Positions 1,280 through 51,043 of a DNA stretch of 64,000 nt are shown here, piece by piece. Numbering within the stretch: position 1 is the first letter of the stretch; each line of letters opens with the position of its first letter. The position numbers were made by a program, and so were the translations under genes. The notes under the pieces were generated by a model. It saw only the letters and a program-made list of their open reading frames with translations. It made no database searches and was not told the origin of the DNA. The DNA is from Desulfobacterales bacterium. GTDB taxonomy: Bacteria > Desulfobacterota > Desulfobacteria > Desulfobacterales > JAIPEE01. Location: contig JAIPEE010000016.1 in NCBI GenBank assembly GCA_021737275.1, positions 1-64,000 of the forward strand, given 5' to 3'.

Positions 1280-3727
1280 ATGCCTGAAGTCAAACTGACA
1301 TTACCGGTTGCCAAAATGACATGTGCAAACTGCGCCATGAACATCGAACGCAGTCTGCAAAAATTGAAAGGTGTGATTGACGTCAATGTTAACTTTGCCT
1401 CAGAAAAGGCAAAAGTCACATTTGACAGCAGCAAAACAGCCACAGGAGACATTGTTTATAACATCAGGGCTGCAGGGTTTGATGTGTTATCCGAATCAGT
1501 TGATTTGCCTGTAACCGGTATGACATGCGCGAACTGCGCTATGAATATTGAAAGAACGCTTAATAAAAAAGTCCCCGGAGTAGTAACGGCATCAGTTAAT
1601 TTTGCCACAGAAAAAGCTTCCGTTACTTACATCCCCTCAGCATCCGGCCTTGATGATATTGTTGGCGCCATCCGGAAAATTGGATTTAACGCTATACAAC
1701 CCGATGAAGAGATGGGTTCTGATGATTTGGAGCAGATTGCACGTGCTAAAGAGATAAAGCGTCAGACTGTTATGTTTATTACCGGTATTGCATTTACACT
1801 CCCCCTTTTACTGATCAGCATGAGCCGAGATTTTGGATTAACCGGCGCATGGAGCCATGAAAATTGGATTAACTGGCTTTTTTTTATACTGGCAACCCCG
1901 GTCCAGTTTTTTACAGGATGGGACTATTATACAGGTGGTTTTAAAAGCCTGAAAAACAAAAGTGCCAACATGGATGTCCTGGTGGCAATGGGATCATCCG
2001 TGGCATATTTTTATTCTATTGCGGTTCTGCTGGTTCCCAACCTTGGCGAACATGTTTATTTCGAGACATCCGCTGTTATCATTACGCTGATCAAACTGGG
2101 TAAAATGCTTGAGGCACGGACAAAGGGGAAAACAGGAAGCGCCATCAGAAAGCTGATACAGCTTCGCCCTGATACGGCAACTATTTTTGAAAACAATGAA
2201 GAGGTTGTTCTTCCCTATTCCCATATAAAGGTTGATCACATCGTTGTTGTGCGTCCCGGTGAACGTTTTCCTGTTGATGGTATTGTTATTGAAGGTAAAA
2301 CATCTGTTGATGAATCCATGATCACCGGTGAATCATTACCCGTTGATAAAAATTCCGGTGACAGTGTTATTGGCGGTACAATAAATCAGGCCGGATATTT
2401 AAAATTTAAGGCAACCCGGGTAGGAAATAAAACCGCACTTTCACAAATCATCAAACTTGTCCAGGAAGCACAGGGCAGTAAAGCACCGATTCAAGCTATT
2501 GCCGATCGGGTTGCAGGAATATTTGTACCCTCAATTATCACGATTGCCTTTCTTACTTTTGTTATCTGGTGGGCGCTGACGGGTGATTTTGTTACATCCA
2601 TGATCCGGCTCGTTGCCGTGCTTGTCATTGCCTGTCCGTGTGCGCTCGGTCTTGCCACACCGACAGCAATCATGGCCGGTACCGGTAAGGGCGCAGAAAA
2701 CGGTATTCTTTATAAAAACAGTGAATCGCTGGAAATTGCCACAAGTCTTGATACGATTGTGCTTGATAAAACCGGCACGATTACCATAGGAAAACCTGCA
2801 GTTGTCGATATTATTCCGCTTCATCCTATAATCTGCTCTGAAAAAAAACTGATGCAGCTTGCCGCTTCTGTAGAAAAGGGATCCGAGCACCCACTCGGAA
2901 AAGCCATTTATTCTTCAGGTGTAAAAATGGGCATCAAACTCCATGAACCCGAAGGGTTTGTTGCATGGGGCGGCTCAGGTGTTGAAGCAAATATTCAAGA
3001 TATCCATGTCAGGGTTGGTAAACCGGAATGGTTTTCTGAAGCAGGTGTCGATTTGGGTAATGTACGGGAAAAGATCTTCGCGTATCAGGCTGAAGGCAAA
3101 ACAGCCATGGTGGTTACATCAAATGATGAAATCTGTGGTATTATAACGGTCGCCGACACATTAAAGCCGGAATCTCAAGAGGCTGTCAGACAATTAAATG
3201 CACTGAATCTGAATGTTATAATGCTGACCGGTGACAATATCAATACAGCCAAAGCCATTGCTGCCGAAGCAGGTATAAAAAATATCTTTGCAGATGTTAT
3301 GCCTGAGGAAAAATCCTCATTGGTTAAAAAGCTTCAGGAAGAAAAAAAATGTGTCGGCATGGTGGGTGATGGTATTAACGACTCTCCTGCCCTTGCTCAG
3401 GCTGATGTGGGAATTGCCATCGGCACCGGCGCAGATGTTGCCATTGAATCTGCAGATGTAATCCTTTCAAGCGGCAAATTAACCGGCATCTCCCGCGTTA
3501 TCCGGCTGAGTCACGAAACAATGAGGACAATAAGGCAAAACCTGTTCTGGGCGTTCTTTTATAATATTATACTGATTCCGGTTGCGGCAGGCATACTGCA
3601 ACCGTTTGACAGTGTGCCGGATTTTCTGAGGCAGCTTCATCCCATGCTTGCAGCCCTGGCTATGGCACTAAGCAGCATATGTGTTGTTACCAACAGTTTG
3701 AGGCTGGGAAAGATTAAACTTCAATAA
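1280..3727 (+). CDS. copA: Copper-exporting P1B-type ATPase
   Basis: An 815-residue inner-membrane Cu(I) exporter. Two N-terminal HMA domains each carry M-T-C-A-N-C (Cys 15/18 and 83/86). Then come the TGES actuator motif, the transmembrane metal site C-P-C at about 452-454, the phosphorylation motif DKTGT at about 496 and the hinge motif GDGIND. These are complete and in order, so the enzyme should be active. The start at 1280 is preferred over the upstream in-frame codon because TTAGGAGAAACATA sits directly before it. It follows the CopZ-like chaperone; no dedicated regulator gene is adjacent. Confidence 0.96.
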
Positions 3728-3768
3728 TCCTGCAGGATCAGCAGATGGATTCAGTAGAGAAAAACATA

Positions 3769-3993
3769 TTATGCCATTATATCAATAATGTTTTTCATCA
3801 TTTGGCCGGCAGTTTCAAGCATTTTGAGATTAGCACTATGGCCATACTCAATAATCGTCATATTGGCAAATTCTTCTGCTACATTGACATTTGATTCGGG
3901 CTGAAATGCTCTTGAAACATTTTCTGCCGTTTCAGACATCTGTTGTCCGAAATCAGCAAGCGCTGCAATATTTACATCTACACCGTTTATCAT
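3769..3993 (-). CDS. Small protein resembling the flagellar rod/hook C-terminal domain
   Basis: A 74-residue protein whose second half matches the C-terminal helix of flagellar rod/hook proteins (Flg_bbr_C type): S-N-V-N-V-A-E-E-F-x-x-M, then S-A-N, then T-A-x-x-M-M. Full-length rod and hook proteins are 130-400 residues, so only the helical tail is present. The start is set by AAGGAGGGTAGT immediately before ATG 3993. No flagellar gene is nearby; the upstream neighbour on this strand is the dynamin-like GTPase. The function is unknown: it could be a stray coiled-coil adaptor or a decayed rod protein. Confidence 0.6.
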   Translation of the reverse strand: MINGVDVNIAALADFGQQMSETAENVSRAFQPESNVNVAEEFANMTIIEYGHSANLKMLETAGQMMKNIIDIMA

Positions 3994-4092: not shown

Positions 4093-6330
4093 TCAGGCCG
4101 TCGCATCAAGTTTCTTTCTTAATGCCTCAATGTTTCCATCAATCATTTCAGTCTGTTTTATTAATTCCGTAAGCGTTGAAATCACCTGTTCCTTTGCGGA
4201 AGTCTTCTCACCAAGCTGATTCAGCATAGCGGATAAATCAGCATCATAAACCCGGTATCTGTCCAGAAGTGACTCATTAATACCACTGCTTAATGCGTCA
4301 ATCAGCTTGTACAGGTACTGAAATTTAATATTTTCACGATAATCCGTAAAGTTTTCTATAATAGACCTTTCAGTTTCACGTTTCATCTGCTTAACACCAT
4401 TTTCAAGCGCCGCTTTTTCACCCTTGCTTCTGCCTTCAACCGGCTTTTTAAGAATCTTTTTCATAAACCGTAAAGCCGCATTCAAGCCGAGGTGCAATAC
4501 AGCATCGGTTTTGATTTTTGCAGAGTATCGCATTGTTGACTGTGATTTTGGCATGGACAGACCTGTCAGACGACGAATCACCTCACAATCAGGGAACCGG
4601 TCTTTATTCCGTTTAAACCTTGTGGACTCAGCGGTTTCTTCCCCGGGCAGAAAAAAACCGTTATCAAGCGCATCCATCACCATGGCCTCATAGGGTCCGG
4701 CGGTGGATTTAAAATAATCATCAATACGGATTTCCCTCTCCCGCACAAATTTAATAACTTTAGGATTTACAGATGAGGCCATAAAGCCGTCAACAGCCTG
4801 CTTGAATTCCTGAAATACCTGATACAGTGTATTGGTGAAACCGGATTTATTCAGACTATCCTCGTATATGTCATATGCAACACTGTAATTTCGGGTAAAA
4901 CGGATCAGTTCGTTTACAATATCACCATTTTTATCGCTGAAAAAGTGGTCGATATCCTTGTTAATTTCTCTTTTGATCTGGTGAATGGAGCCGTCCAGCG
5001 TACTTTTTATCATTGATCTGATCTGAGCCATTCTTTCCTGACGATGCTTGATTTTTTTAAGCATATGCCCGGCATTATCTTTATCCCCTGTTAAAAGCTG
5101 AAGATTCATATCGGCCCATTCGGACAGATTGGACCTGATTACATCAAGTCGTTCGATATGATTTCTGATATAGAGCAAATAACGCTCATCCGTAAGCTTA
5201 TGTGTCAGCTCAGATTCAAACCTGACACTCTCGCTGTCTGAAAGGCTCACGAGCTCCGTTTCAGCCTGCCATTGTGCATAACGCAGGATATCTTTTTTAG
5301 ACAATTCATCCTGAATAATGCCGAAAAGGTTATAAAGTGCCGATATAACAAATATTTCAGGATCAGATAGAATGATGAGCAATTCTTCTCTGACTTTTTC
5401 TACAAGCCGGTTTAAATCCTCAAGAGAATCATGTTCACTGAAGTCGCTGTTGACAACAAACATGATATTTTCAATAATTCCCATCTCCCTGATCATGGTT
5501 AAAAAACGAATATCCGCCTGCCTCAGGCCGGTACGGCTGCTGATCACATAAACCAGAAGATGGGCCTTCTGGAGATAATCCTGAATCATTGCCAGATGCA
5601 TAGGGTTAGGAGAGTCGCTGCCCTGACAGTCTGCAATCTCAACATCAGATGGGATTTCACCGGTACTGATTTCAAGTTGCACATCCTTCAGATAGACGGC
5701 CATCGTATCGTCACCGACAAATTTTCGGTGTTCTGCAAAGGAGTTTTCATCAAAATGACAAATTTCCGTCTCTGTTGATATATGGTCTTTTATCTCATCA
5801 TATTTTTTTAAATAAGAGGACAGGAGCAGGCTGTTTATATTACGGGTATCATTCGTAATTAACTGGTCCGGGCTTAAATTGTCCAACGCACTTTCAAGCA
5901 ATGTCCGATCCTGTTCACGCCTGATATCAAAATGACCGCCTTCACCCGGCGGGGTCATTGAAGGAAAAAGAACAAGCGCCTGTTGTATATCTTCATTAAT
6001 CTCATCCCATGATTTAAAATAAAGTGTCGCCTTGAGGTTTTCGTTCTGTTTTACCCGTGTAACAATAGAGGTAATGACACCTGCGCCCCTTTTCAGATAA
6101 TCACCCTTGAAAAGTGAATTTGAGAAAGTACTCTTACCTGATTTGATGGGGCCGATGATTGCAACTCTTACAAGATCCTCGGCAATCTGTTTTTCAATCC
6201 GGGAACAAATCTTATCCCACTCACTTATCACCCCTTCAGCAGCAGGAATATTTTTTGCTTCAGCAAGTATCACCTTCAGTTTCAGGTTAATATCCAGCAA
6301 CTCATCCTTCAGATTATTATAAGTTTCCAT
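4093..6330 (-). CDS. Bacterial dynamin-like large GTPase
   Basis: A 745-residue dynamin-superfamily GTPase. G1 is GPIKSGKST at residues 60-68, a T-rich switch I follows near 87-91, G3 is D-C-Q-G at 234-237 and G4 is a variant N-S-D at 294-296. The rest is long, charged and helical, as expected for the stalk/bundle used in membrane remodelling. There is no signal peptide. Known relatives act in membrane protection or fusion, or are linked to phage defence; the sequence alone does not choose. It stands alone, without the tandem second dynamin often seen. The small rod-like protein lies 99 bp downstream. Confidence 0.8.
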   Translation of the reverse strand: METYNNLKDELLDINLKLKVILAEAKNIPAAEGVISEWDKICSRIEKQIAEDLVRVAIIGPIKSGKSTFSNSLFKGDYLKRGAGVITSIVTRVKQNENLKATLYFKSWDEINEDIQQALVLFPSMTPPGEGGHFDIRREQDRTLLESALDNLSPDQLITNDTRNINSLLLSSYLKKYDEIKDHISTETEICHFDENSFAEHRKFVGDDTMAVYLKDVQLEISTGEIPSDVEIADCQGSDSPNPMHLAMIQDYLQKAHLLVYVISSRTGLRQADIRFLTMIREMGIIENIMFVVNSDFSEHDSLEDLNRLVEKVREELLIILSDPEIFVISALYNLFGIIQDELSKKDILRYAQWQAETELVSLSDSESVRFESELTHKLTDERYLLYIRNHIERLDVIRSNLSEWADMNLQLLTGDKDNAGHMLKKIKHRQERMAQIRSMIKSTLDGSIHQIKREINKDIDHFFSDKNGDIVNELIRFTRNYSVAYDIYEDSLNKSGFTNTLYQVFQEFKQAVDGFMASSVNPKVIKFVREREIRIDDYFKSTAGPYEAMVMDALDNGFFLPGEETAESTRFKRNKDRFPDCEVIRRLTGLSMPKSQSTMRYSAKIKTDAVLHLGLNAALRFMKKILKKPVEGRSKGEKAALENGVKQMKRETERSIIENFTDYRENIKFQYLYKLIDALSSGINESLLDRYRVYDADLSAMLNQLGEKTSAKEQVISTLTELIKQTEMIDGNIEALRKKLDATA

Positions 6331-6753
6331 ATAATTTTATTTAATTTTTTCTTGAGGTTATAATTTATTATTTATTTTACACGATTGTTAATAAAGAGGA
6401 ATTAGATACATCTAAACTATTTAATTGTCAAAGATAATAGCTATTAAAACTTTTTTTAGAACTTATCTTTTTAATTGCTAATTATAATTTTTACAGATTC
6501 AAACCCGGTTATAATATGGCGGTTGATGTTGAAAAAATAAAATTTATAAATATCATTTTATATAATTTTATCTATAATTTATATATTATAAAACAAACCT
6601 TTACTTAAATGTTTAAATAAGATGTGATATTCAGATCATTTCTCCGGACCTGTTCTAACACACTAACATAATGCCTTGTTATTATGTTGTAATATTTATC
6701 TTTTTATGTTAAGGTCAATGAAATTTTAAATAAAATGAAGGGAACGAATCCAA
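6331..6753. other. AT-rich intergenic region, divergent promoters expected
   Basis: About 420 bp of very AT-rich sequence between the divergently transcribed GTPase and the small Cys/Lys protein. It must hold promoters for both. I see no convincing -35/-10 pair, repeat or open frame in it. Confidence 0.4.
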
Positions 6754-6930
6754 ATGTCTGAGAAGCATCCTGAATGTCCTTTATATAATCCCTTGAATTG
6801 CAAAGAATATTATAATCCAAAACTTTGCGCTTTTGTAAGAAAGGACAAGGTTTGTCTTAAAAAGAAAAAGCCAAAACCAAAATCAAAGCCAAAAACAAAA
6901 GATAAGCCTGAAGCTACTACCGGCGCTTAA
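6754..6930 (+). CDS. 58-residue four-cysteine, lysine-tailed protein
   Basis: Starts ATG 6754 behind GAAGGGAACG and ends TAA at 6930, followed by a strong terminator. Residues 1-35 hold four cysteines (8, 16, 25, 34) spaced 8, 9 and 9, in the pattern H-P-E-C-P-L ... N-C-K ... C-A-x-V-R-K-D-K-V-C. The tail is a Lys/Pro-rich stretch of alternating K and P. A close paralogue is encoded at 45670-45822, which supports real coding. A small metal-bound knuckle with a basic nucleic-acid-binding tail is a reasonable guess, but I know of no named family. Confidence 0.65.
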   Translation: MSEKHPECPLYNPLNCKEYYNPKLCAFVRKDKVCLKKKKPKPKSKPKTKDKPEATTGA

Positions 6931-6981
6931 AGTTTTAAAAATATTATTCTTGATGTATTCAGAGATTTTGACACCGAACTT

Positions 6982-7020
6982 AATACGCTCTTTTATTTTA
7001 TGAAAGGGCGTATTTTTTTT
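6982..7020 (+). terminator. Rho-independent terminator after the small Cys/Lys protein
   Basis: AATACGCTCTTT pairs with GAAAGGGCGTATT (one wobble) and is followed by a run of eight T. It faces the plus strand and lies 52 bp after the small gene's stop. Confidence 0.8.
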
Positions 7021-7031
7021 AAAGACAACCC

Positions 7032-7601
7032 TTATGCCGAACCTGCAACCCGGGAAATCACTGCAGGTGTTACACCTATTGTTTTTAAAGTAGCTTCCCA
7101 CCGCTCCTCAACCGGCATTTTAAACATAATCTCTTCAACTGCAGGACAATTCAGCCATGCATTATCTATTATTTCAGCTTCTATTTGACCGGGCCCCCAT
7201 CCGGCACATCCAAGTGCAATCAAATACTGTTCAGGTCCCTTACCTTTCGCGATCGCTTCGATAATATCAATCGTATTAGTCATACCAAGCGTTGGCGTTA
7301 TCTGAAGACAGGCATCCCACCCAAACGGTGAACCATGAATAACAAAGATTTCATCAATATGAACCGGCCCGCCAACATAGATGGGAATAGATTCAGGATC
7401 AACAGTAAAATTGATGTTAAGCTCTTCAAAGATATCTTCTGCTGTCAGAGAATCACTCAGACGGTTAATCACAACACCGACAGCTCCCATTTTATTGTGT
7501 TCACAAATGCAGCTTACACTTTTTGCAAAATTTGGATCCGGCATTCCAGGCATCGCAACAAAAAACTGGCCTTTGAGGTATGTTTTCCGTTCAATATTCA
7601 T
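7032..7601 (-). CDS. AlgH/YqgE family protein (UPF0301)
   Basis: A 189-residue protein with the family's full layout: an N-terminal strand ending in F-V-A-M-P-G-M, then G-A-x-G-V-V-I-N-R, Y-V-G-G-P-V and L-G-C-A-G-W-G-P-G-Q-I-E. The length matches AlgH (about 187). ATG 7601 is preferred to the upstream TTG 7637, although neither has a clear ribosome binding site. The biochemical role of the family is still unsettled. It stands alone, convergent with the small Cys/Lys gene. Confidence 0.9.
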   Translation of the reverse strand: MNIERKTYLKGQFFVAMPGMPDPNFAKSVSCICEHNKMGAVGVVINRLSDSLTAEDIFEELNINFTVDPESIPIYVGGPVHIDEIFVIHGSPFGWDACLQITPTLGMTNTIDIIEAIAKGKGPEQYLIALGCAGWGPGQIEAEIIDNAWLNCPAVEEIMFKMPVEERWEATLKTIGVTPAVISRVAGSA

Positions 7602-7823: not shown

Positions 7824-9173
7824 ATGGACTCAAAATCAGAAGAACTTTTGCGTTTGAGAAATGACGCTCAATCCATTTTTCTTGCCGGCATTCATGCTGT
7901 TAAATCCGGAGAAGCAATTAAGCGATACTGCTGGCGTGATGGCAATGATCTGATTATCGGCAAAAATCGATACGATCTTTCGGAATTTGAAAATGTATAT
8001 GTCATCGGAGCCGGTAAAGCGACTGCCGCCATGGCACATGCAATAGAAGAGCTTGTAGGAGATTTTATTTCTGACGGTGTAATCGTTGTTAAATACCTGC
8101 ATACCGTACCGCTTACCCATATCAGAACAATTGAAGCGGCCCACCCGGTACCGGATAATAACGGCTTATTCGGTGCAAAAATAATTCTGGAGATAGCTTC
8201 GGCGGCTACAATAAAAGATCTTGTTATCTGTTTGATTTCAGGCGGAGGGTCGGCACTCATTCCTCTTCCCTTTGGCGGTATCTCTCTTGAGGATAAACAG
8301 ACAACCATAAAAACGCTGCTCTCTTGCGGTGCTGCGATTGATGAAGTTAATGCCATAAGAAAACATATTTCCATGATCAAGGGCGGCAACCTTGCCAGGG
8401 TCATATTTCCTGCAACACTTGTAACGCTAATGGTTTCGGATGTAATTGGTGATCATATGGATGTTATCGCTTCAGGCCCTACAGTACCGGATTCAAGCAC
8501 CTTTCAATATTGTCGGGAAATTATAAAAAAATATAATTTAGCATCTCAACTACCGGAATCCGTTTTAGAACATATTGAAAAAGGTGTATCAGGAAAAATT
8601 TCCGACACACCCAAATATGGTGATCGTGTATTTAAAAACAGTGTAAATTTAATCATTGCGGGAAATATGGATGCCCTTTCTGCAGCAAAAGACAGGGCAT
8701 CTGAATTAGGATATACCCCGCTTGTTCTCTCTTCAGTTATTGAAGGTGATACAACCCAGGCGGCATTGTTTCATACGGCGATCGCTAAAGAAGTTTTGAA
8801 AACAGGCCATCCTGTTTCTGCACCGGCCTGCATTTTGTCCGGCGGTGAAACAACTGTTGTCATCAAGGGGAATGGGCTTGGCGGCCGTAATCAGGAATTT
8901 TCACTTGTATCCGCCATAGAAATATCCGGCAGTGAGAATATTTTAATCCTTAGCGGCGGTACTGACGGTACTGACGGCCCTACAGATGCGGCCGGTGCCA
9001 TCGCAGATTCCGGCACGTTAACAAGAGCGGAAAAACAGCACCTTAATGCCCGTGACTTTCTTGAAAATAACGATTCTTATCGTTTCTTTGAATTGCTGGG
9101 AGACCTTGTTAAAACCGGGCCTACCGACACAAACGTAATGGATATTCGAATTATCCTGGTAACAACCGCATAA
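7824..9173 (+). CDS. Glycerate 2-kinase, MOFRL family
   Basis: About 449 residues, the usual size of class-II glycerate kinases that phosphorylate D-glycerate to 2-phosphoglycerate. N-terminal domain: G-A-G-K-A-T-A-A-M, then H-P-V-P-D and S-G-G-G-S-A-L. C-terminal MOFRL domain: G-G-R-N-Q-E-F-S-L and G-T-D-G-x-D-G-P-T-D-A-A-G. ATG 7824 is chosen because homology begins near it; a GTG at 7767 in the same frame adds 19 residues. No strong Shine-Dalgarno is visible at either. It is monocistronic in this window, so its source of glycerate (serine cycle, photorespiratory-type or sugar-acid route) is not indicated. Confidence 0.9.
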   Translation: MDSKSEELLRLRNDAQSIFLAGIHAVKSGEAIKRYCWRDGNDLIIGKNRYDLSEFENVYVIGAGKATAAMAHAIEELVGDFISDGVIVVKYLHTVPLTHIRTIEAAHPVPDNNGLFGAKIILEIASAATIKDLVICLISGGGSALIPLPFGGISLEDKQTTIKTLLSCGAAIDEVNAIRKHISMIKGGNLARVIFPATLVTLMVSDVIGDHMDVIASGPTVPDSSTFQYCREIIKKYNLASQLPESVLEHIEKGVSGKISDTPKYGDRVFKNSVNLIIAGNMDALSAAKDRASELGYTPLVLSSVIEGDTTQAALFHTAIAKEVLKTGHPVSAPACILSGGETTVVIKGNGLGGRNQEFSLVSAIEISGSENILILSGGTDGTDGPTDAAGAIADSGTLTRAEKQHLNARDFLENNDSYRFFELLGDLVKTGPTDTNVMDIRIILVTTA

Positions 9174-21247: not shown

Positions 21248-21625
21248 TTAACATAACTTTTCAGCACCGGAATAAACTTCTTCGACTTTCAGTGCAGCAG
21301 CAGCATGCCCCGGATGCTTTTTGGGATTCCATGTTTTCATATCGTCAAAAACAGGGCCCTCTTTATGGTATTCAATAGAACCCTTAAGCTGATAAGCATC
21401 TCCTTTTTTTGTTATAAAAAGAATGGAGCCCTTGCTTCCGGCCTGTATGTTTTCCAAGGTTTTGGAAAAATAATTGTTTGCAACAACGATGGTATCATCA
21501 CTGTACTTTGAAACGCAGGTTGCGTATATTGAATTGGGAACGCCTTTTTCATTAACAGTGGTTAAAATAATGGGACCTTCCCGGTTTTCCCACGCTGTCT
21601 TTACCTTTTCGGGTAATGCTGTCAT
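21248..21625 (-). CDS. Pyridoxamine 5'-phosphate oxidase-like flavin-binding protein
   Basis: 125 residues with the split-barrel features of small PNPOx-like proteins: G-P-I-I-L-T-T-V-N-E-K-G-V-P-N near the start, then I-V-V-A-N-N-Y-F-S-K-T and K-G-D-A-Y-Q-L-K-G. Such proteins bind FMN, F420 or heme, and the ligand is not predictable here. It follows the MttB-family gene by 144 bp on the same strand and may be the last gene of the methylamine unit or separately transcribed. Confidence 0.8.
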   Translation of the reverse strand: MTALPEKVKTAWENREGPIILTTVNEKGVPNSIYATCVSKYSDDTIVVANNYFSKTLENIQAGSKGSILFITKKGDAYQLKGSIEYHKEGPVFDDMKTWNPKKHPGHAAAALKVEEVYSGAEKLC

Positions 21626-21769: not shown

Positions 21770-23248
21770 TTATAATAATTCTTTTTCAGCTTCTCGAATG
21801 ATATTTTTTAATTCCTCTTTTACTTCACCACTTAATGGTTTAGGCTCATAGTTTTCAAGTATCCAGCGTGTTTTTTCTCTGGCCGCTTCCCTTGGATCAC
21901 GAAAAACACTTTCCGTTGAATCCCACTGAAATGCCATGCCAGACGTCCAGACTTTTCTTATGTTTTTCAAGGTAAGCCTGGAATCCAGAAAATGACCGCC
22001 ATGTCCTACTCTGTCAATTTCATCCAGCGCAAGCGTCTCTTCAGTAACATCTATTCCTCTGGAAATTGTTTCAATAGAGTTAAGTGTTTCGATATCCATT
22101 AACAATGCTTCGTAATGTAATAGCGTAACAGAATCACGAATACCCGGCATAACGATCATATCCGGATTAGCCTGGTAGGCGAGCAATGCCTCAATGGCAA
22201 CGTCCTTGCCCGCCTTCCAGGTATCACAACCCGTTGAATCCGTACCACCAAAGGCCGACATCACCGGTAAATTATAAAAATGTCCCAACTCAGGACCAAC
22301 TGCATTAAGCAGATGCTGACAATATGCGGTCATAATCCCGCCGCCTGAGTAGGGGTTCATTGTCATGGAAAAAAATGCATAATATACAGGTGCGCCGGGG
22401 TAAAGAAGCTGGATATAGCAAATTGTACTGAGCAGTTCTGCATTTCCGGCAACCAATAATCCTGCAAATGTTGCAGGCCCGGTTGACCCCAATGTCGGTA
22501 ATACACCAATACCGACCGGCAAACCGGCTTCTGCAAAGATCAAACCGGCCTCGAGTGCCGCTTCATCCTGATTTAAAGGTGATACCGGGCAAATCAAAAC
22601 AGAAAGCGGCGGCCGTTTTCTGGCAGCCTCTTTACCGCCTGCAACAGACTGAGCCATCTTTACTGCATATTTTGCAGGGCCCGGTTTAACACAACTGATG
22701 ATATGCACATGTTTTTCAGTATTCAAAAAAGATGCTTCAATCTCATGAAGAGAAACAGTTGCAGGCGGCACATCATCTGCACTTACCATTGGCCAGTAAA
22801 ATGAACAGGATGACACATAATCCGTTATCTTTGCCATATTACCAACGTCCGCTTTGGTTGAAGAACGTTTTTCTCCGGTTTCAAAATCAATTGTCGCACA
22901 ACCGGTACCGGATGTGCCCATATGGGTTGCTTCTCCATTTAAAACAAAGTCAAGAGCTTCATTACCACGTGAAGCCATGGTATAGCTTCTGGGTGCTTTG
23001 GCAATATTCTCCATTAATAAATCGCGCGGGATTTTAACGACCTGCTTTTCAAAATCCACATCGGCGCCGGCATCTGCAAACGTTTTTAAGGCTATTTCTG
23101 ATGGAAATCTTATGCCGGTATTTTCGAGCAGTTTTAACGTTGCCTGATGGATATCCTCAATCTTCTGATCATTGAGGATTCGGGTTCGCATTTCCGGTGG
23201 TAGGGAAATGGGCGAAATAGAAGCTTCACTATTCTTGTTAGTCGTCAT
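21770..23248 (-). CDS. MttB-family methyltransferase without pyrrolysine
   Basis: 492 residues, homologous end to end with the trimethylamine methyltransferase encoded just upstream. Where that protein has pyrrolysine (V-A-G-G-O-G-D-S), this one reads A-F-G-G-T-D-S-T, with no TAG. Non-Pyl members of the superfamily characterised elsewhere demethylate quaternary amines such as glycine betaine, proline betaine or carnitine and pass the methyl group to a corrinoid protein. A quaternary-amine substrate is therefore inferred. It lies 18 bp downstream of the corrinoid protein gene, so it probably shares that protein with MtbB/MttB. Confidence 0.9.
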   Translation of the reverse strand: MTTNKNSEASISPISLPPEMRTRILNDQKIEDIHQATLKLLENTGIRFPSEIALKTFADAGADVDFEKQVVKIPRDLLMENIAKAPRSYTMASRGNEALDFVLNGEATHMGTSGTGCATIDFETGEKRSSTKADVGNMAKITDYVSSCSFYWPMVSADDVPPATVSLHEIEASFLNTEKHVHIISCVKPGPAKYAVKMAQSVAGGKEAARKRPPLSVLICPVSPLNQDEAALEAGLIFAEAGLPVGIGVLPTLGSTGPATFAGLLVAGNAELLSTICYIQLLYPGAPVYYAFFSMTMNPYSGGGIMTAYCQHLLNAVGPELGHFYNLPVMSAFGGTDSTGCDTWKAGKDVAIEALLAYQANPDMIVMPGIRDSVTLLHYEALLMDIETLNSIETISRGIDVTEETLALDEIDRVGHGGHFLDSRLTLKNIRKVWTSGMAFQWDSTESVFRDPREAAREKTRWILENYEPKPLSGEVKEELKNIIREAEKELL

Positions 23249-23266
23249 AATATATCTCTTTTACTG

Positions 23267-23905
23267 TTATGCTAACATTTCTTTGATTGTCTGAGCTGCA
23301 CTGGCCGCATCTTCAGCATATGCATCAGCACCAATTTTATCTGCCCAGCCTTGATTAACCGGAGCGCCGCCGATAATGGTTTTAAATTTACCCTTCAAAC
23401 CCTTTTCTTTAAGCGAATTTTCCAGTTCTTCCTGATAACCCATGGTTGTAGTCAACAGTGCGCTGGTGGCAATAACATCCGCATCCAGCTCAACAGCTTT
23501 ATCAATGAACGCCTGTGTGACCACATCCCGACCCAGATCAATTACTTCGAAACCGCTGGCTGAAAGGAAAGACGCCACGATACTTTTTCCGATATCATGA
23601 ATGTCTCCCTTTACTGTTCCAAGAATCACTTTTCCTTTGGATGCGGCTGCCTCACTACCAAGCGACCGGTTACAGATATCCGCTGCAATCTTCATGGCAT
23701 CGGCAGCCATTACAAGCTCAGGCAAAAAGATCTTTTCCGCTTCAAACAATTCTCCTATCTCCGTAATACCTGCAACAAATCCCTGTTCCAGTAAAACAGC
23801 CGGATCCATTCCGTTGGTTAAGGCCATCTCTGCTATCTGTTTTACTTTATCCTGATCGGCTGTTTTGATCGCTTCTTTAGCCTGACTAAATATTAATTCC
23901 TGCAT
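23267..23905 (-). CDS. mttC: Corrinoid (B12-binding) methyl-carrier protein
   Basis: 212 residues: an N-terminal four-helix cap domain (about 1-88) and a C-terminal Rossmann B12 domain. The cobalt-ligand motif D-x-H-x-x-G is D101-I-H103-D-I-G106, followed by the S-x-L region (A-T-S-A-L-L) and G-G-A. It accepts a methyl group from the methylamine methyltransferases and passes it to a downstream methyltransferase. That enzyme and the reductive activator RamA/RamQ are not in this window. It sits between mttB (8 bp upstream) and the non-Pyl MttB homologue (18 bp downstream). Assignment to MttC rather than MtbC is uncertain. Confidence 0.92.
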   Translation of the reverse strand: MQELIFSQAKEAIKTADQDKVKQIAEMALTNGMDPAVLLEQGFVAGITEIGELFEAEKIFLPELVMAADAMKIAADICNRSLGSEAAASKGKVILGTVKGDIHDIGKSIVASFLSASGFEVIDLGRDVVTQAFIDKAVELDADVIATSALLTTTMGYQEELENSLKEKGLKGKFKTIIGGAPVNQGWADKIGADAYAEDAASAAQTIKEMLA

Positions 23906-23913
23906 ATATTCTC

Positions 23914-25389
23914 CTATTTAATATGCTTTTTCTCAAAAGCAGCTACAATCTTTTTAATTTCATCTTCAACGCCATCTCCCAAAGGAAGTGGTCTATGCGT
24001 TGCAATAATATCTCTGGCTTTTTCTGTAGCAACCTGATCCAGTCGCTTTGAACCGCGCTTTTCCCATGCGCCCCTCATACGTCGATCAAAAAGTTTTGTC
24101 TGCGTCTGTTCCTGCTTCAGATAGTCCATGGTATGTCGCTGATTAAGGAAGTTGCCACCGATACCGACCTCTTTGATCAGTTCAACACCCATTGTTTCCC
24201 TGTCACAGCTAAAACCGCCAACGACTCTTTTTACCATTGCTGCTATTTCATCATCTATTACAAGCTGACCGTAGTTAAATATCATCCCCATCTCAAGCAT
24301 GCCTGGTCCGTAAATCATATTGGCGCCTGCCAATGCCGGAAGTAATGCGGTGAGGGTTTTTTCATGTCCGGCCTGAACATCACAAACCTTTGAGTCGCCC
24401 TATCCACCGGCAACATAATTGGGTAAACCATAAAAGTTGGCAAGCTCCACGACAGCTGCGCTGATCATACCCAGTTCAGGCGCACCAACAACGGCAGCGC
24501 TGTAACGCATATCAAAGGTTGTGGTTGAACTGCCGTATATCATCGGTGTACCGGGATTTATGATCTGGCCTAAAACAATTCCGGCCAGTACTTCTGCATT
24601 ATGCGTAACAAGCGTACCGGATATTGATATCGGACTGGAACCGCCGGCCATGGCCATACTCAGTACAGTCATCGGTATCCACTTTTCTGCACAAAGCTCT
24701 ATAAGATCCGTTGCATTTTCTATATACTGCAGTGGACTGGTAGGACAAACCAGTGTTGAAACAATCGGCCTGGCCTTCATTTCATCCGAACCACCTGTGA
24801 TAGCTGCGGCCATTTCAAATATCTGAAGTGCACTTTCTTTAGATTCTATCTCTGCGCCAATATGCTTGGAACAGTTTACAAATGCCGTTTCAGCCATATG
24901 GAGGTCATATGATTCATTGGGCACATCACGCGGTGTTACCGGTGGTGTGTAGATATCCATATGAGGTAGAGCATCAATCAGTACACCCATCTCCTCCAGA
25001 TCTGCCTTGGTTGAATCCCGCAGTTCGCCGGTTTCTAAATCCTGTGTGGTGACGCCAACACCAAACGGTGTAAAACCCACTTCGCGTCCACCCATCATAA
25101 AGTCATGCCGGGAGTCACGTCCGGCCATAATTATCTGGTTGGGACATGAGGTGATCGCATCATTAACCAGATGCCTTGGGAATCTTACAACCTTTGTCTT
25201 TCTGTTTACCCAGCACCCGCCTTTTTCAAATATATCCAGCGCCCTGTCTGAATCAAATCTGATACCGGTGGTCTGCATGATCTCCAGTGTGGCATTATGG
25301 ATATCTTCAATCATATCTTTGGAAAGCGCTTTTAAGCCCCACCCCAGAATTGCTTCATTTCCTGCCTTGGGTCCTCTTCTCATACTCAT
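23914..25389 (-). CDS. mttB: Trimethylamine methyltransferase with in-frame UAG (pyrrolysine)
   Basis: Two frames, 25389-24403 and 24399-23914, are in phase and separated only by a TAG at 24400-24402. Read through, the protein has 491 residues with the TAG at codon 330, in V-A-G-G-O-G-D-S-K. This is the context and position of pyrrolysine in archaeal MttB (about residue 334). The sequence continues Q-A-G-H-E-K-T-L-T-A-L-L-P-A-L-A-G-A-N without a gap, as in the family. It transfers a methyl group from trimethylamine to the adjacent corrinoid protein. It begins 6 bp after mtbB. Its final stop is also TAG and overlaps the next gene's Shine-Dalgarno (TAGGAGA). The tRNA-Pyl and pylSBCD genes are not in the window. 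Confidence 0.93.
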
Positions 25390-25395
25390 CTCCCT

Positions 25396-26799
25396 TTATT
25401 TCAATTTTGACTGGAACAATTTGACGGAATTGATTTCAATGTTCAGAAGCTTAGCAATTTTATTTTTTGCAAGTATTCCTTTTTCAGCTCCGGGGATGGC
25501 CACAAGCGTTCCAATGCCCAATTCCTCGCGCAATGGCCTCATTATTTCTTCGTCAATTAAATCAATCACCTTAATACCCAGTTTATCCGCCACATATTGT
25601 TTTGCTTCATTCAATCTCATTTTTCGGGTCATCTGCATCCAGGCTACCAGATCTCCGGTAGTCCGTATACCACCCATACATGAAGCTAAAATGTGAGCAA
25701 CCGGCATTCCAAATGTATCACCAACGCCAACCTACAACCCGTCAACCTTACCAATTTGGATCAGTGCTTTGGATGCTCGTGTTACACAATCAATGGCTGA
25801 TTCTTCAAGCATCGGAATACCGCAAACGCCCATTCCAACATTGGCATGAATCGGTATAGCGGATGCTTCCGATGTTGCTTTTACAAATGTGACAGCTCGG
25901 GAAAGATTCCATGGAATAGATTTTGAAGAGTTAACATTAATTGCCGGCCCAAAAATATCAGCACCGGCTTTTTCAGCAACGATTACCTGGTCATGCGGAT
26001 ACATACCGGCCAAACGCTGCCCGTCAAATTCAACTTCACCATGCATACCCAGAACAAATTCGGATGCCATACCAATAACGACCGGCATGTTCGGGTTTAT
26101 TTTTTTTACTTCAACACAGACATTTAACGCAGACATAAAATCTGCATCTCCCGCTGAACCGCAGGTATCCAGATTAAGGCCTTCAAGGCCGACACGATTA
26201 AGTTCCTTAAAGATATAAACAATATCATCTTCCATCATGGCAGCTGCATCAATCTGGGCCTGTTTTGCCTCTTTGATTTTACCGAGAGGAAGCAATTCAG
26301 ATGGGTTATCACAAGGGCCGTCCGGCTTGTAATAAAGCCCCATGTTAGGCTGTGCGCCATAAAACAAAGGTATCGTTGTAAGTTGAGATGTTGAATAATA
26401 ATCCTGCATTTCATAGTTGATAATACTTTTCACCGGTTTGTAACTAAAATCATGATGCGGCATTAAAACCGTATCAGCCCCACAGGCTTTTTCATAGGTC
26501 AATATAGCCTGACTACGGCTCAATGGCAGGCCTGCACCACTATCTCCCTGTTCCGAAATAAACCCCAGGACACTGCCGTCATCAATAACAATCACTTCTT
26601 CTCCCGGGTTAACACTAACGATGCGTCCCGGCTCAGCAATAATATTATATAACTGATCAAGTTCGTTAGCAGACAATTCAGGAATTTTTCCCCTATCGGC
26701 AGCATCTTTTGAGCCTTCGAGGATATCCGCTTTAATCTCCCCGGCAGACATCATCACAAGCTCGCCGTCTCCCATTCGTGTTCTAATCGTTTTACTCAT
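25396..26799 (-). CDS. mtbB: Dimethylamine methyltransferase with in-frame UAG (pyrrolysine)
   Basis: In-phase reading from ATG 26799 to TAA 25396 gives 467 residues with a single TAG at 25732-25734, codon 356. This matches the length and pyrrolysine position known for MtbB (Pyl-356). Flanks read V-D-G-L-O-V-G-V-G-D and then G-M-P-V-A-H-I-L-A-S, family sequence on both sides. It demethylates dimethylamine to a corrinoid carrier in the cytoplasm. It is the first gene of the unit mtbB-mttB-corrinoid protein-mttB homologue, with AGAGGAGATAAAAT before the ATG. Annotation pipelines would split it into two ORFs. Confidence 0.94.
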
Positions 26800-31726: not shown

Positions 31727-33358
31727 CTATTTTGCATGTACATTAAAATAAGTAAACGGATTGATCCATGTAGAATATCCGCCCATATAACCGACATAGC
31801 CTTCAAGCTTATCTGTTCTGACAGCCTCAATAGTATCAGGCCTGCAAATTACATAGTGCGGCAGATCCCTGTGCATGATCTCCTGGAGCTTCCAGCAAAG
31901 CGCTTTCCGTTCATCAAGATCTATGGCTGTAAGATACTCGTTCAGGACATCGTCAAAATCCAGGTTGTTGTAATACGCTGTGTTCCAGGCGCCGCCGCCG
32001 GATTCATGACTTCTCATAAACTCCCAGACCCATGACGCATAAGGACCGGGTTCTTCCGTGCCAACGGAAATATCAAAGCCCATTCCCTGCGGATAATAGT
32101 AAGTATCAAAATAGGTATCCAGATCTGTTACCACTATTCTGATATCGAGACCAATAGCCTTCATCTGCTCACGAAAGAGCTGGACCATTTTAACCAGTTC
32201 AGCTGAACTGGACGGCACGAGGAATTTAAAAGATATGTTTTCCCCGGCAGCATTGTTTCTGATACCGTCATCATCAGAGTCCAGGTATCCGCTTTTATCC
32301 AGAAGTTTATTGGAAAGTGCCGGATCATAATTATATTCCGGCAGGTTCGGGTTATATTCAAAAAGCTCCGGATATATAAAGGTTTCCTGCAGTTTTGCAT
32401 AACCATGGTAAACCATATCTATGATTCTCTGTTTGTCGATACCGTGAACGATAGCTTTTCGAACATCAAGGTCTCTAAGGGGGCCTTCTTTATATAAATT
32501 GAATGTCAACCAGTTCAGAGATATACCCGGCAGAGCATCAACCTGAATATTCTTATCTTTTTCAAGAAACTTTTTCGCCAGGGGAGATATACCACCATAA
32601 CCGATCATATCGATTTCGTTTTTTTTCATGGCCATATTCCGACCGTCGGAGCTCCCGTAAGTTTTAAAAACAATGGAATCCACTCTTGGTTTATCTTCCC
32701 AGTAATCCTCGAACCGCTCAAAGGTCATATACAGGCCTGATTTATACTCTTTCAGTTTAAATGGCCCGGACCCGATAGCATCTTTATTTTTCATCTTGTC
32801 CAGTTCAAATTTATGGCGCCGCCACAGATGTTCCGGAAGGATTGGGTACCAGTTAAAAGGCGGATACTTGGGAGAAATAGGAGCTACAAGTGTAAATTCA
32901 ACGGTATGATCATCAACAACGACTATAGAATCTTCTACTGTAACCGCATCATAAAATGCCCATACCGGGTTGGATACCGGCAAATGTTTAAAGGTAAAAG
33001 CAAAATCTTTTGCAGTGACAGGTTTGCCGTCATGAAAAGTTGTATCTTTTCTGACATGATACCTGAATGTTTGATTGTCTTTTGTAGTACAATCGCTTGC
33101 CGCCCTGAATTCATAAGGGTAATCAGGTGGCGCACCAAAATGATGCGGTTGATCATAGACCAGCTGCCAGAACATACAGCCCATATCTTCATATTGCCAT
33201 GCATCATTACAGGCCAGAGATCTGATCATTTCATCTGAAAGCCATCCGACACGCAGTTCCCCGGCGGCATTTGCACTTGAAGTAATCATAGGAACAAAAA
33301 AAAGTACTCCCATAAAGACTATTAACCCCAAAAATTGTTTATGCTTCCAATTACACAT
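31727..33358 (-). CDS. ABC-type substrate-binding protein, family 5 (copy 2)
   Basis: 543 residues with signal peptide, mature A-G-E-L-R-V-G-W, the H-D-G-K-P-V-T-A-K-D region and C-terminal S-Y-F-N-V-H-A-K. It is very close to copy 1 along its whole length. It ends in tandem TAG TAG, unusual in this window where TAA dominates and TAG also encodes pyrrolysine. GGAAAGGAGAACAGT precedes the ATG. Stem-loop element 3 lies 89 nt upstream. Cognate permease and ATPase genes are absent here. Confidence 0.93.
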   Translation of the reverse strand: MCNWKHKQFLGLIVFMGVLFFVPMITSSANAAGELRVGWLSDEMIRSLACNDAWQYEDMGCMFWQLVYDQPHHFGAPPDYPYEFRAASDCTTKDNQTFRYHVRKDTTFHDGKPVTAKDFAFTFKHLPVSNPVWAFYDAVTVEDSIVVVDDHTVEFTLVAPISPKYPPFNWYPILPEHLWRRHKFELDKMKNKDAIGSGPFKLKEYKSGLYMTFERFEDYWEDKPRVDSIVFKTYGSSDGRNMAMKKNEIDMIGYGGISPLAKKFLEKDKNIQVDALPGISLNWLTFNLYKEGPLRDLDVRKAIVHGIDKQRIIDMVYHGYAKLQETFIYPELFEYNPNLPEYNYDPALSNKLLDKSGYLDSDDDGIRNNAAGENISFKFLVPSSSAELVKMVQLFREQMKAIGLDIRIVVTDLDTYFDTYYYPQGMGFDISVGTEEPGPYASWVWEFMRSHESGGGAWNTAYYNNLDFDDVLNEYLTAIDLDERKALCWKLQEIMHRDLPHYVICRPDTIEAVRTDKLEGYVGYMGGYSTWINPFTYFNVHAK

Positions 33359-34118: not shown

Positions 34119-34592
34119 ATGGGACTGGAAATAGACAAAGTTGACTCAAAGATTATCTGCTTACTTCAAGAAAATGGAAGAATGCCAAATACTGAAATTG
34201 CTCAAAAGCTTGGCATTTCCGAAGCAACGATCAGAAAGCGGATACAAAGACTGATTAAAGATGGAATCATAAAGATTGTTGCGGCATGTGATCCTTTTAA
34301 AGTTGGATTTAATGTTGTTGGAAATATGCACATCAAGCTAGACATTAAAAAATCTGATCAGGCCATCAAAGAGCTCAAGGAACTTGATGAGCTCTGGTAT
34401 ATTTCTCTTGTTTCCGGCACCTATGATCTTGATATTGAATTTCGCCTCAGATCAATTGATGAATTACACTCACTACTTTACGATCGTATTTACCCCATTG
34501 AAGGTGTTTTAAGCACCAACTCTTCATTTACACTTAAATATATTAAAGACAGTTATAATATTGGTACAGCGCTTGAATATGATGAAGATTAG
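34119..34592 (+). CDS. Lrp/AsnC-family transcriptional regulator
   Basis: 157 residues: an N-terminal winged HTH (D-S-K-I-I-C-L-L-Q-E-N-G-R-M-P-N-T-E-I-A, then G-I-S-E-A-T-I-R-K-R) and a C-terminal RAM ligand domain. It is paralogous to the two AsnC proteins at 46013 and 48015 and is the same length. It is divergent from binding-protein copy 2 and followed by the agmatinase gene on the other strand. It ends in TAG with a TAA two codons on. An amino-acid or amine effector is likely. Confidence 0.92.
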   Translation: MGLEIDKVDSKIICLLQENGRMPNTEIAQKLGISEATIRKRIQRLIKDGIIKIVAACDPFKVGFNVVGNMHIKLDIKKSDQAIKELKELDELWYISLVSGTYDLDIEFRLRSIDELHSLLYDRIYPIEGVLSTNSSFTLKYIKDSYNIGTALEYDED

Positions 34593-34720: not shown

Positions 34721-35644
34721 TCACTTTTTCTGTGAAGCCAGCAGACAAATCATATCATTTGCCACTGCTGCAGCCAGAATAGCCGTTATTTCACCGTGAT
34801 CATACGCAGGTGAGACCTCTACCAGATCCATACCGGCAAAACTGATATCTCCCAAACCCTGGATAATTTCCAGTGCCGTCAGTGATGTCAACCCTCCAGG
34901 CACCGGAGTTCCGGTTCCGGGCGCATATGCCGGATCAAAACAATCAATGTCAAATGTGAGATATGCTTTATTATCTCCAACAATCTTTTTGATTTCCGCC
35001 AGTGTCGCCTCGGCCCCGTTTTTCATAACCCAGGGTGCATGAAAAATATTGAACCCGTGTGTTTCGGGATTCTGTGTCCGAAGACCAATCTGAATAGACT
35101 TTTCAGGAATAATGAGTCCTTCCCTGGCTGCTCTCAAAAACATCGTCCCATGGTGCTCGCTGGAATCATCCCAGGTATCCGAATGTGCATCAAAGTGAAT
35201 TAGTGACATTGGACCATGTTTCTCTGCATGTGCCTTTAAAAGCGCATAAGAAATATAATGATCACCGCCCAGTGTCAGCATGAATACACCTGCATCCAGA
35301 ATATGCTTAGCATGGTTGTAAATTGAATCATTAATGGTTTCAGGCTTGCCGGCATCAAAATAACAGTCGCCATAATCAATAACCGCCAGCCGTTCAAATG
35401 GGTCAAACGGCCATGGCCAATGATTGTATTCATTTGCGACAGAAGCCTTTCTGACAGCAGCCGGACCAAAGCGGGTTCCCGGCCGATTGCTTACCATCAA
35501 ATCCAGTGGAACGCCGCTGACGGCCACATCGACACCGGTTAAATCCTTTGTGTATTTTCGACGCATAAAGCTCAAGATTCCGGCGTAATCCGGTTCATGG
35601 GCCATTCCATAAAGACTTTCTGCCGTTATTGCATGATCAGTCAT
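34721..35644 (-). CDS. speB: Agmatinase/arginase-family ureohydrolase
   Basis: 307 residues with all manganese-site motifs of the ureohydrolase family: G-G-D-H-Y-I-S, H-F-D-A-H-S-D and D-I-D-C-F-D-P-A-Y-A-P-G-T-G-T-P. The predicted reaction is agmatine plus water to putrescine and urea. This is a second, deiminase-independent route to putrescine in the same window. Guanidinobutyrase or another guanidino substrate is possible, since the family is hard to split by motif alone. It is monocistronic, convergent with an AsnC regulator. Confidence 0.88.
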   Translation of the reverse strand: MTDHAITAESLYGMAHEPDYAGILSFMRRKYTKDLTGVDVAVSGVPLDLMVSNRPGTRFGPAAVRKASVANEYNHWPWPFDPFERLAVIDYGDCYFDAGKPETINDSIYNHAKHILDAGVFMLTLGGDHYISYALLKAHAEKHGPMSLIHFDAHSDTWDDSSEHHGTMFLRAAREGLIIPEKSIQIGLRTQNPETHGFNIFHAPWVMKNGAEATLAEIKKIVGDNKAYLTFDIDCFDPAYAPGTGTPVPGGLTSLTALEIIQGLGDISFAGMDLVEVSPAYDHGEITAILAAAVANDMICLLASQKK

Positions 35645-46012: not shown

Positions 46013-46486
46013 CTATACGGGCATCGCCCCACCTTTCGGCGTTTCCCAGTCATAACGGTTTTTAATAAGCTGAAGTCTGAACGAAGGTTCGGCATTAACC
46101 ACACCGTTAATTTTGTTAATTTTTGAAAGCAGGTCCCTTAGCTCACCTTGAGATCTGACACTAAATTCCGCATCAAAGTCTGAGGCACCGGTTAAATGGG
46201 CGATATACCAGATACCGTCAATCGAATCGAGTTTTTTGATAACATGCTCGGTTTTCTTGGTATCAATTTTAATTTTGATGTTACCTTCAATTTCATGGCC
46301 AAGTTTCAAATGGTTTACAACTGCAACAATTTGAATCAGTTCATTATCAAACAATCGTTTCAAACGCTTTCTGATGGCTGTTTCAGATATCTTAAGCTTT
46401 TTTGCCAGTTCAGTATTCGGCATACGGCCATTTTTCTTAAGCATATGGATTATTTTGGAATCGACTTCATCAATTAATTTTCTCAT
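46013..46486 (-). CDS. Lrp/AsnC-family transcriptional regulator
   Basis: 157 residues: HTH with G-R-M-P-N-T-E-L-A-K-K-L and S-E-T-A-I-R-K-R-L, and a RAM effector domain. ATG 46486 is chosen (AAGGGGATTC before it, and equal length with its paralogues) over an in-frame codon 66 nt upstream. It is divergent from aguA copy 2. It is nearly identical in the final P-K-G-G-A-M-P to the AsnC at 48015. It ends in TAG. Confidence 0.93.
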   Translation of the reverse strand: MRKLIDEVDSKIIHMLKKNGRMPNTELAKKLKISETAIRKRLKRLFDNELIQIVAVVNHLKLGHEIEGNIKIKIDTKKTEHVIKKLDSIDGIWYIAHLTGASDFDAEFSVRSQGELRDLLSKINKINGVVNAEPSFRLQLIKNRYDWETPKGGAMPV

Positions 46487-46602
46487 GAATCCCCTTGGCT
46501 TTTTTTTATAAAATATAGTGCCGTATATTTTTTTATTTTCCAAACTTCTCATAACATATGCTCTCTTTTATTTCAAAATAGAAATTAGACTACCGGCACT
46601 TG

Positions 46603-50086: not shown

Positions 50087-51043
50087 ATGTACGAAGAATT
50101 AGTTGTTATCGCGTTGGGTGGCAATGCAATTAAACAGGCTGGTGAAAAAGGAACAACTGAAGAACAATTTGCGAACGTAGATATTACAGCAAAACAGATT
50201 ACACGTATTTGCAAGGCCGGTTATCTCCAAGTACTGACCCATGGAAATGGTCCCCAGGCGGGTGCCCTGCTAATTCAGCAGGAAGAGGCAAAAGATCTTG
50301 TTCCGCCCCAAACACTGGCCTGCTGTGGTGCAATGACACAGGGGCAGATAGGATGGATGTTCCAGAACCGCATTGGATTTCATTTTAAAAATGAGGGCTT
50401 GGACTACCCGGTTTCCACCATGATTACACAGGTTGTTATTGATAAGAATGATCCGGATTTTCAAGACCCGTCAAAACCGGTCGGACCGTTTTATACTGAA
50501 GCGGAGGCCATGGCCTTAAAAAATGATAAGGGTTATATTATCAAAGAAGCCAAACCCGGAGAAGTAAAATCCTGGCGCCGTGTCGTACCATCACCGAAAC
50601 CCATTGATATTTACGAAAAAAAATCAATCAAACAGCTGCTTGATATTGAAGCACTGGTTATCGTTTCCGGCGGTGGCGGCATTCCGGTTGTCGAGGAAAG
50701 CGATGGAAGTTTTTCCGGTGTTGATGCGGTTATTGATAAAGATCTCTCTGCCAACAAATTGGGCCAGGTGCTTAATGCAGACTACCTGTTGATCCTTACG
50801 GATGTTGAACATGCCTTTATTAATTTCAACAAACCGGATCAGAAAGCACTTGAGACTATCACATTAAGTGAAGCCGAAAAATACCAGGAAGAAGGCCAGT
50901 TTGCCAGTGGTTCCATGGGACCAAAAATGGATGCCGCCATGAGATTTGTTCGCTGGGGCGGCAAAGCTTCCATTATCACAAGCCTTGATAAAGCGTTAGA
51001 TGCCCTTAATGGAAAAACCGGTACCCGAATTGTTAAGGATTAG
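50087..51043 (+). CDS. arcC: Carbamate kinase
   Basis: 318 residues of the amino-acid-kinase fold: A-L-G-G-N-A-I at the N-terminus, T-H-G-N-G-P-Q, S-G-G-G-G-I-P-V-V and G-S-M-G-P-K-M-D-A-A near the end. It makes ATP, ammonia and CO2 from carbamoyl phosphate and ADP. It is the energy-yielding last step of the agmatine deiminase route encoded around it. AAAGGAGGCTATCC precedes the ATG. It ends in TAG, followed by a palindrome. Confidence 0.96.
   Translation: MYEELVVIALGGNAIKQAGEKGTTEEQFANVDITAKQITRICKAGYLQVLTHGNGPQAGALLIQQEEAKDLVPPQTLACCGAMTQGQIGWMFQNRIGFHFKNEGLDYPVSTMITQVVIDKNDPDFQDPSKPVGPFYTEAEAMALKNDKGYIIKEAKPGEVKSWRRVVPSPKPIDIYEKKSIKQLLDIEALVIVSGGGGIPVVEESDGSFSGVDAVIDKDLSANKLGQVLNADYLLILTDVEHAFINFNKPDQKALETITLSEAEKYQEEGQFASGSMGPKMDAAMRFVRWGGKASIITSLDKALDALNGKTGTRIVKD

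Follow-up and report, generated by a model that had tools for sequence, protein, structure and literature searches.

The mtbB locus and its neighbours

The minus strand of the window, i.e. the whole stretch of 64,000 nucleotides analysed here, carries a run of genes in the order mtbB, mttB, corrinoid protein, TAG-less MttB-like and PNPOx-type. The first of them, mtbB, predicted to encode a dimethylamine:corrinoid methyltransferase, lies at 25396..26799 and consists of 467 codons with one in-frame TAG. Read from 26799 to 25396, the frame comprises 355 codons, the TAG (25734-25732), 111 further codons and a TAA. Standard ORF calling cuts this gene into two pieces, 25732-26799 (355 aa) and 25396-25707 (103 aa), as the first-pass annotation had foreseen. 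The protein obtained by reading through the TAG matched TIGR02368 with a score of 522.3 bits (cut-off 369.1) from position 6 to position 465 of 466, and PF09505 with a score of 613.8 bits, in agreement with the earlier description of a single in-phase TAG at codon 356 with family sequence on both sides. In a random frame of like composition, 111 open codons would be found by chance with a probability of about 8e-4; more decisively, the 111 codons downstream of the TAG match family sequence, which indicates that the frame past this codon is not due to chance.

Neither the strand of mtbB nor the presence of the same in-frame TAG in the adjoining gene had been mentioned in the earlier description. 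This second gene, mttB (23914..25389, minus strand), predicted to encode a trimethylamine:corrinoid methyltransferase, has one in-frame TAG at 24400..24402, which aligns with Pyl334 of M. barkeri MttB (7xcl/7xcm). It is followed on the same strand by the gene of a cognate corrinoid protein of the MtbC/MttC type, the predicted methyl acceptor (23267..23905, above the TIGR02370 cut-off), by an MttB-superfamily methyltransferase without TAG (21770..23248, below the trimeth_pyl cut-off), which perhaps acts on a quaternary amine, and, at the end of the run, by a small pyridoxamine 5'-phosphate oxidase-like protein (21248..21625).

Agmatinase-like and amidinotransferase-like genes were found near two mtbB copies, at 34721-35644 (minus strand) in the window and at 2838-3833 and 5939-7105 (plus strand) of locus L094. 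Family 5 solute-binding proteins accompany them, and these genes might supply methylated amines. Because of this location, we considered whether mtbB is linked to enzymes that release dimethylamine from guanidino compounds; the neighbours match agmatinase and glycine-amidinotransferase types and no known dimethylamine-releasing enzyme, so that the link is no more than a lead.

We also looked for an RNA element after the TAG. The sequence downstream of the mtbB TAG matched PYLIS_2 (RF02509, pyrrolysine insertion sequence of mtbB) at 25635..25734 on the minus strand (79.4 bits, gathering threshold 36), and that of mttB matched PYLIS_3 (RF02510) at 24303..24402 on the same strand (75.1 bits, gathering threshold 38), both matches starting exactly at the TAG. 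The region following the mtbB TAG displayed no excess of folding energy that would denote a special RNA structure (z-score -0.65), and the PYLIS_2 match may largely reflect codon conservation. Since the PYLIS models also capture codon conservation, and given this lack of folding excess, we took the matches as evidence of family membership, which falls short of proving an RNA signal.

Conservation of the TAG codon among MtbB homologues

A codon alignment was built from 40 sequences, namely the 11 full mtbB copies of the same genome and homologues from other genomes, with the TAG read through. The TAG at 25732..25734 (minus strand), the predicted pyrrolysine codon 356, falls into an invariant column, which holds TAG in 40/40 sequences and TAA or TGA in none of the 40. 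The window MtbB shares 44-72% identity with its 39 homologues, both before and after the TAG. Median pN/pS was 0.42 before the TAG and 0.40 after it, and for the closest pairs, in which synonymous change is unsaturated, dN/dS ranged from about 0.01 to 0.1 before the TAG and from 0 to 0.13 after it. Constraint is thus similar on either side, and the downstream segment is in all likelihood translated as well and kept intact by purifying selection.

The 11 full copies are distributed over nine contigs and each contains exactly one TAG (11/11). The first-pass annotation had proposed to align the gene with MtbB and had allowed for a sequencing error at 25732-25734. Although the genome is a draft assembly, the same codon is found in all eleven paralogues on their nine contigs and in every aligned homologue from other genomes, so that an error of sequencing or assembly at this position has a negligible probability and is excluded in practice.

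Two other full-length homologues carry a sense codon in place of the TAG: TCG (Ser) at 1705-1707 of L090 (G059:C365) and TTG (Leu) at 1790-1792 of L091 (G068:C38). They sit in different parts of the MtbB tree, L090 being nearest to L020, one of the copies of the genome studied here. Each of these codons is one base away from TAG, and a sequencing error or a recent mutation is thus possible. The two homologues suggest that the MtbB family may not absolutely require pyrrolysine.

Pyrrolysine decoding genes in the same genome

Contig C63 (locus L011), which is not the contig of the window, carries a complete pyl cluster. No tRNA gene was found in the window, in which the first-pass annotation had seen no pyl gene. 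The search of the genome for pylS, pylB, pylC, pylD and tRNA-Pyl(CUA), which had been suggested on that occasion, thus recovered all of them. The cluster comprises, all on the minus strand of L011, a tRNA-Pyl with anticodon CTA (CUA) identified by ARAGORN (8759-8833), pylSc (7964-7122; TIGR02367, 337.7 bits, cut-off 178), pylB (7091-5976; TIGR03910, 482 bits, cut-off 348), pylC (5982-4810; TIGR03909, 425 bits, cut-off 248), pylD (4808-3942; TIGR03911, 225 bits, cut-off 150) and pylSn (3941-3603; TIGR03912, 131 bits, cut-off 51); a corrinoid protein gene separates the tRNA gene from pylSc. PylSc, for which the genome contains one strong match, aligned end to end with its closest solved relative, D. 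hafniense PylSc (3dsq/2zni), with an E value of about 1e-93. Upstream of the cluster, in the same stretch, lie the genes of a methyltetrahydrofolate:corrinoid methyltransferase and of a second corrinoid-protein-like product, through which the methyl group could plausibly be routed. An MttB match on C63 with an apparent internal TAA turned out to be two adjacent genes in one frame.

The genome is a draft of 104 contigs, 96% complete with 4% contamination. GC content was 0.42 for the window against 0.40 for the pyl contig, and their tetranucleotide frequencies were correlated with an r of 0.966, pieces of the window reaching 0.97-0.98 among themselves and other organisms 0.05-0.82. The window and the pyl contig therefore fit one and the same genome. 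Among 58 related genomes, mtbB was found in four and PylB above its cut-off in five, which include all four mtbB genomes; this co-occurrence has a probability of about 1 in 85,000 by chance (hypergeometric, relatedness ignored). In two relatives, G034 and G050, mtbB and PylB are located on one contig.

A search with a tRNA model recovered 42 tRNA loci in the genome. Another suppressor tRNA could in principle insert an ordinary amino acid at the UAG, but tRNA-Pyl is the only one with a CTA anticodon among the loci typed by ARAGORN, and nothing in favour of another suppressor was found among the 42 loci of this draft, which may miss a tRNA. One weak locus was left untyped by ARAGORN; its anticodon loop, read by eye, is CTTACAA and not CTA. 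We consider the insertion of an ordinary amino acid by another tRNA extremely improbable.

Probable dual use of UAG as stop and as sense codon

About 5 of the 42 genes of the window, mttB itself included, apparently end at a TAG. These genes are located at 31727-33358 (minus), 34119-34592 (plus), 46013-46552 (minus), 50087-51043 (plus) and 23914 (minus). Some of them have a further stop close behind, the one at 31727 ending in TAG TAG. Such a usage indicates that UAG is probably read both as a stop and as pyrrolysine in this genome, and that some termination at codon 356 of mtbB is likely. The first-pass annotation had stated that the organism decodes UAG as pyrrolysine. The full pyl set upholds this view, but the codon appears to be dual and not simply reassigned.

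These apparent terminators, together with one degraded mtbB fragment found in the genome near transposase-like ORFs, could be taken to mean that the TAG of mtbB is a genuine stop codon or arose by nonsense mutation, the gene being a pseudogene or the source of a 355-residue product. We regard this as very improbable in view of the TAG common to the 11 full paralogues and the 40 aligned homologues, of the purifying selection on either side of it and of the complete pyl cluster. The mtbB gene at 26799..25396 is thus almost certainly intact, with UAG 356 decoded as pyrrolysine, the incorporation of which we infer from sequence data.

Copy number of mtbB and mttB

Besides its 11 full mtbB copies, the genome contains 10 TAG-bearing mttB matches, two of which are at contig ends. 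These two, G000:C84:5-1342 and G000:C86:5-1342, are cut at the same place at the start of their contigs and are possibly repeats that broke the assembly. The next highest PF09505 counts among the genomes compared were 10, 6 and 6, fragments being counted. On the tree, the 11 mtbB copies are spread over several branches and do not form one clade, which points to old paralogues or transfers and not to one recent burst.

Such diverged paralogues (44-72% identity) make substrate specialization plausible, and the substrate of the window copy, as an intact pyrrolysine-containing MtbB, could be an N-methylated amine other than dimethylamine. This is rather unlikely, since the protein scores well above the dimethylamine equivalog cut-off and its gene is in one run with those of a corrinoid protein and of a trimethylamine-type methyltransferase, whose reaction would yield dimethylamine. 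In a broader and speculative scenario, to which we give a low probability, the 11 copies would have specialized for different N-methylated amines and some members of the branch would since have swapped pyrrolysine for an ordinary residue; this latter part is based on the full-length Ser homologue L090 and its proximity to copy L020.

A degraded mtbB fragment is found at L094:11352-11663 (G000:C55), next to a corrinoid protein gene and transposase-like ORFs. Over 76 residues, among them the TAG, it shares 87% identity with the window copy. The single MtmB-family protein of the genome (L053:1495-2865; G000:C8:99270-100619) has no TAG and shows a Tyr at the position of Pyl202 of M. barkeri MtmB. 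Its gene is located after a corrinoid protein gene and before an amidohydrolase-like gene, and the protein may have another substrate. A TAG-less MtmB-like gene is already on record in Bilophila (PMC7593587).

Predicted structure and proposed mechanism

The AlphaFold model of MtbB is a TIM barrel (mean pLDDT 87, pTM 0.90) in which residue 356 is located in a late barrel strand (354-357). No relative of MtbB turned up among the PDB sequences, and codon 356 was accordingly examined by alignment, through the neighbouring mttB and on this predicted model. The closest solved folds among the matches listed were cobalamin-dependent methionine synthases (Z 17.8), followed by betaine-homocysteine methyltransferases; MttB and MtmB were absent among these matches, which has no bearing either way. 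The likeness of the modelled barrel suits a methyl transfer to a corrinoid, a common barrel alone showing no function. Pyrrolysine at the UAG position of an archaeal MtbB has been shown by mass spectrometry (PMC2933860), and the binding of the amine by the imine of pyrrolysine is known from work on MttB and MtmB (PMC9842639), from which we extend it, by analogy, to the window MtbB.

In the mechanism that we propose, tRNA-Pyl would be charged by the split synthetase PylSc/PylSn and would read UAG 356 of mtbB, PylB, PylC and PylD making the pyrrolysine. Within the TIM barrel of MtbB, the pyrrolysine imine would bind dimethylamine and the methyl group would be handed to the corrinoid protein whose gene lies a short way downstream, in the manner of Methanosarcina MtbB; the neighbouring corrinoid protein gene supports this predicted transfer. 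The neighbouring pyrrolysine-containing MttB would perform the same reaction with trimethylamine, di- and trimethylamine being most likely the methyl donors of the organism. The methyl group would then probably be passed to tetrahydrofolate and oxidised in this dsrA-bearing bacterium (dsrA match, 618.8 bits). Three RACo/RamA-like corrinoid-activating proteins are encoded in the genome. The nearest named mtbB genes are those of Desulfobacterales and other deltaproteobacteria, and the organism would accordingly belong to the former Deltaproteobacteria and live by oxidising the methyl groups of methylamines.

Significance and comparison with known systems

The seemingly broken gene pair corresponds to one enzyme, and an annotation with the standard code would break about 21 genes of this genome likewise. 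These data add a further lineage with sulfite reductase to those using methylamines by way of an expanded genetic code; methylamines may be a resource for which such bacteria and methanogens compete. Moreover, the mtbB copy number and the sense-codon homologues make a strict need for pyrrolysine in this family testable.

The MtbB of Methanosarcina barkeri is a dimethylamine methyltransferase with pyrrolysine at codon 356. The window gene resembles it in family, length, in-frame amber codon and corrinoid protein neighbour, and differs from it by its bacterial host, by the split PylSc/PylSn and by the methyl group presumably going to tetrahydrofolate and not to coenzyme M. The pyl system resembles that of Desulfitobacterium hafniense, whose PylSc is the closest solved relative and whose pylScBCDSn order is found here, whereas the phylum is different and a corrinoid protein gene sits between the tRNA gene and pylSc. 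Complete bacterial pyl clusters have been published (PMC2933860). In the delta symbiont of Olavius algarvensis (Zhang and Gladyshev 2007, as cited in PMC2933860), also a deltaproteobacterial-type bacterium with pyl genes, pylBCD and pylTScSn are described in that citation as lying on different contigs, whereas all pyl genes are gathered here in one cluster together with a corrinoid protein gene.

Pyrrolysine-containing tri- and dimethylamine methyltransferases have also been published for marine deltaproteobacteria (PMC8318568), which share with the present genome the pyl genes, the tri- and dimethylamine methyltransferases with in-frame TAG and, probably, methylamines as substrates of sulfate-reducing sediment bacteria. 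In that study, up to five trimethylamine methyltransferase copies were reported per genome, as compared with 11 full copies of mtbB and 10 mttB matches with a TAG in the genome studied here. Pyrrolysine-encoding MtbB and MttB in such deltaproteobacteria being already published, the mtbB of the window is a further and unsurprising example; less ordinary are the expansion of mtbB to 11 copies and the presence of Ser or Leu at the pyrrolysine codon in two full-length homologues.
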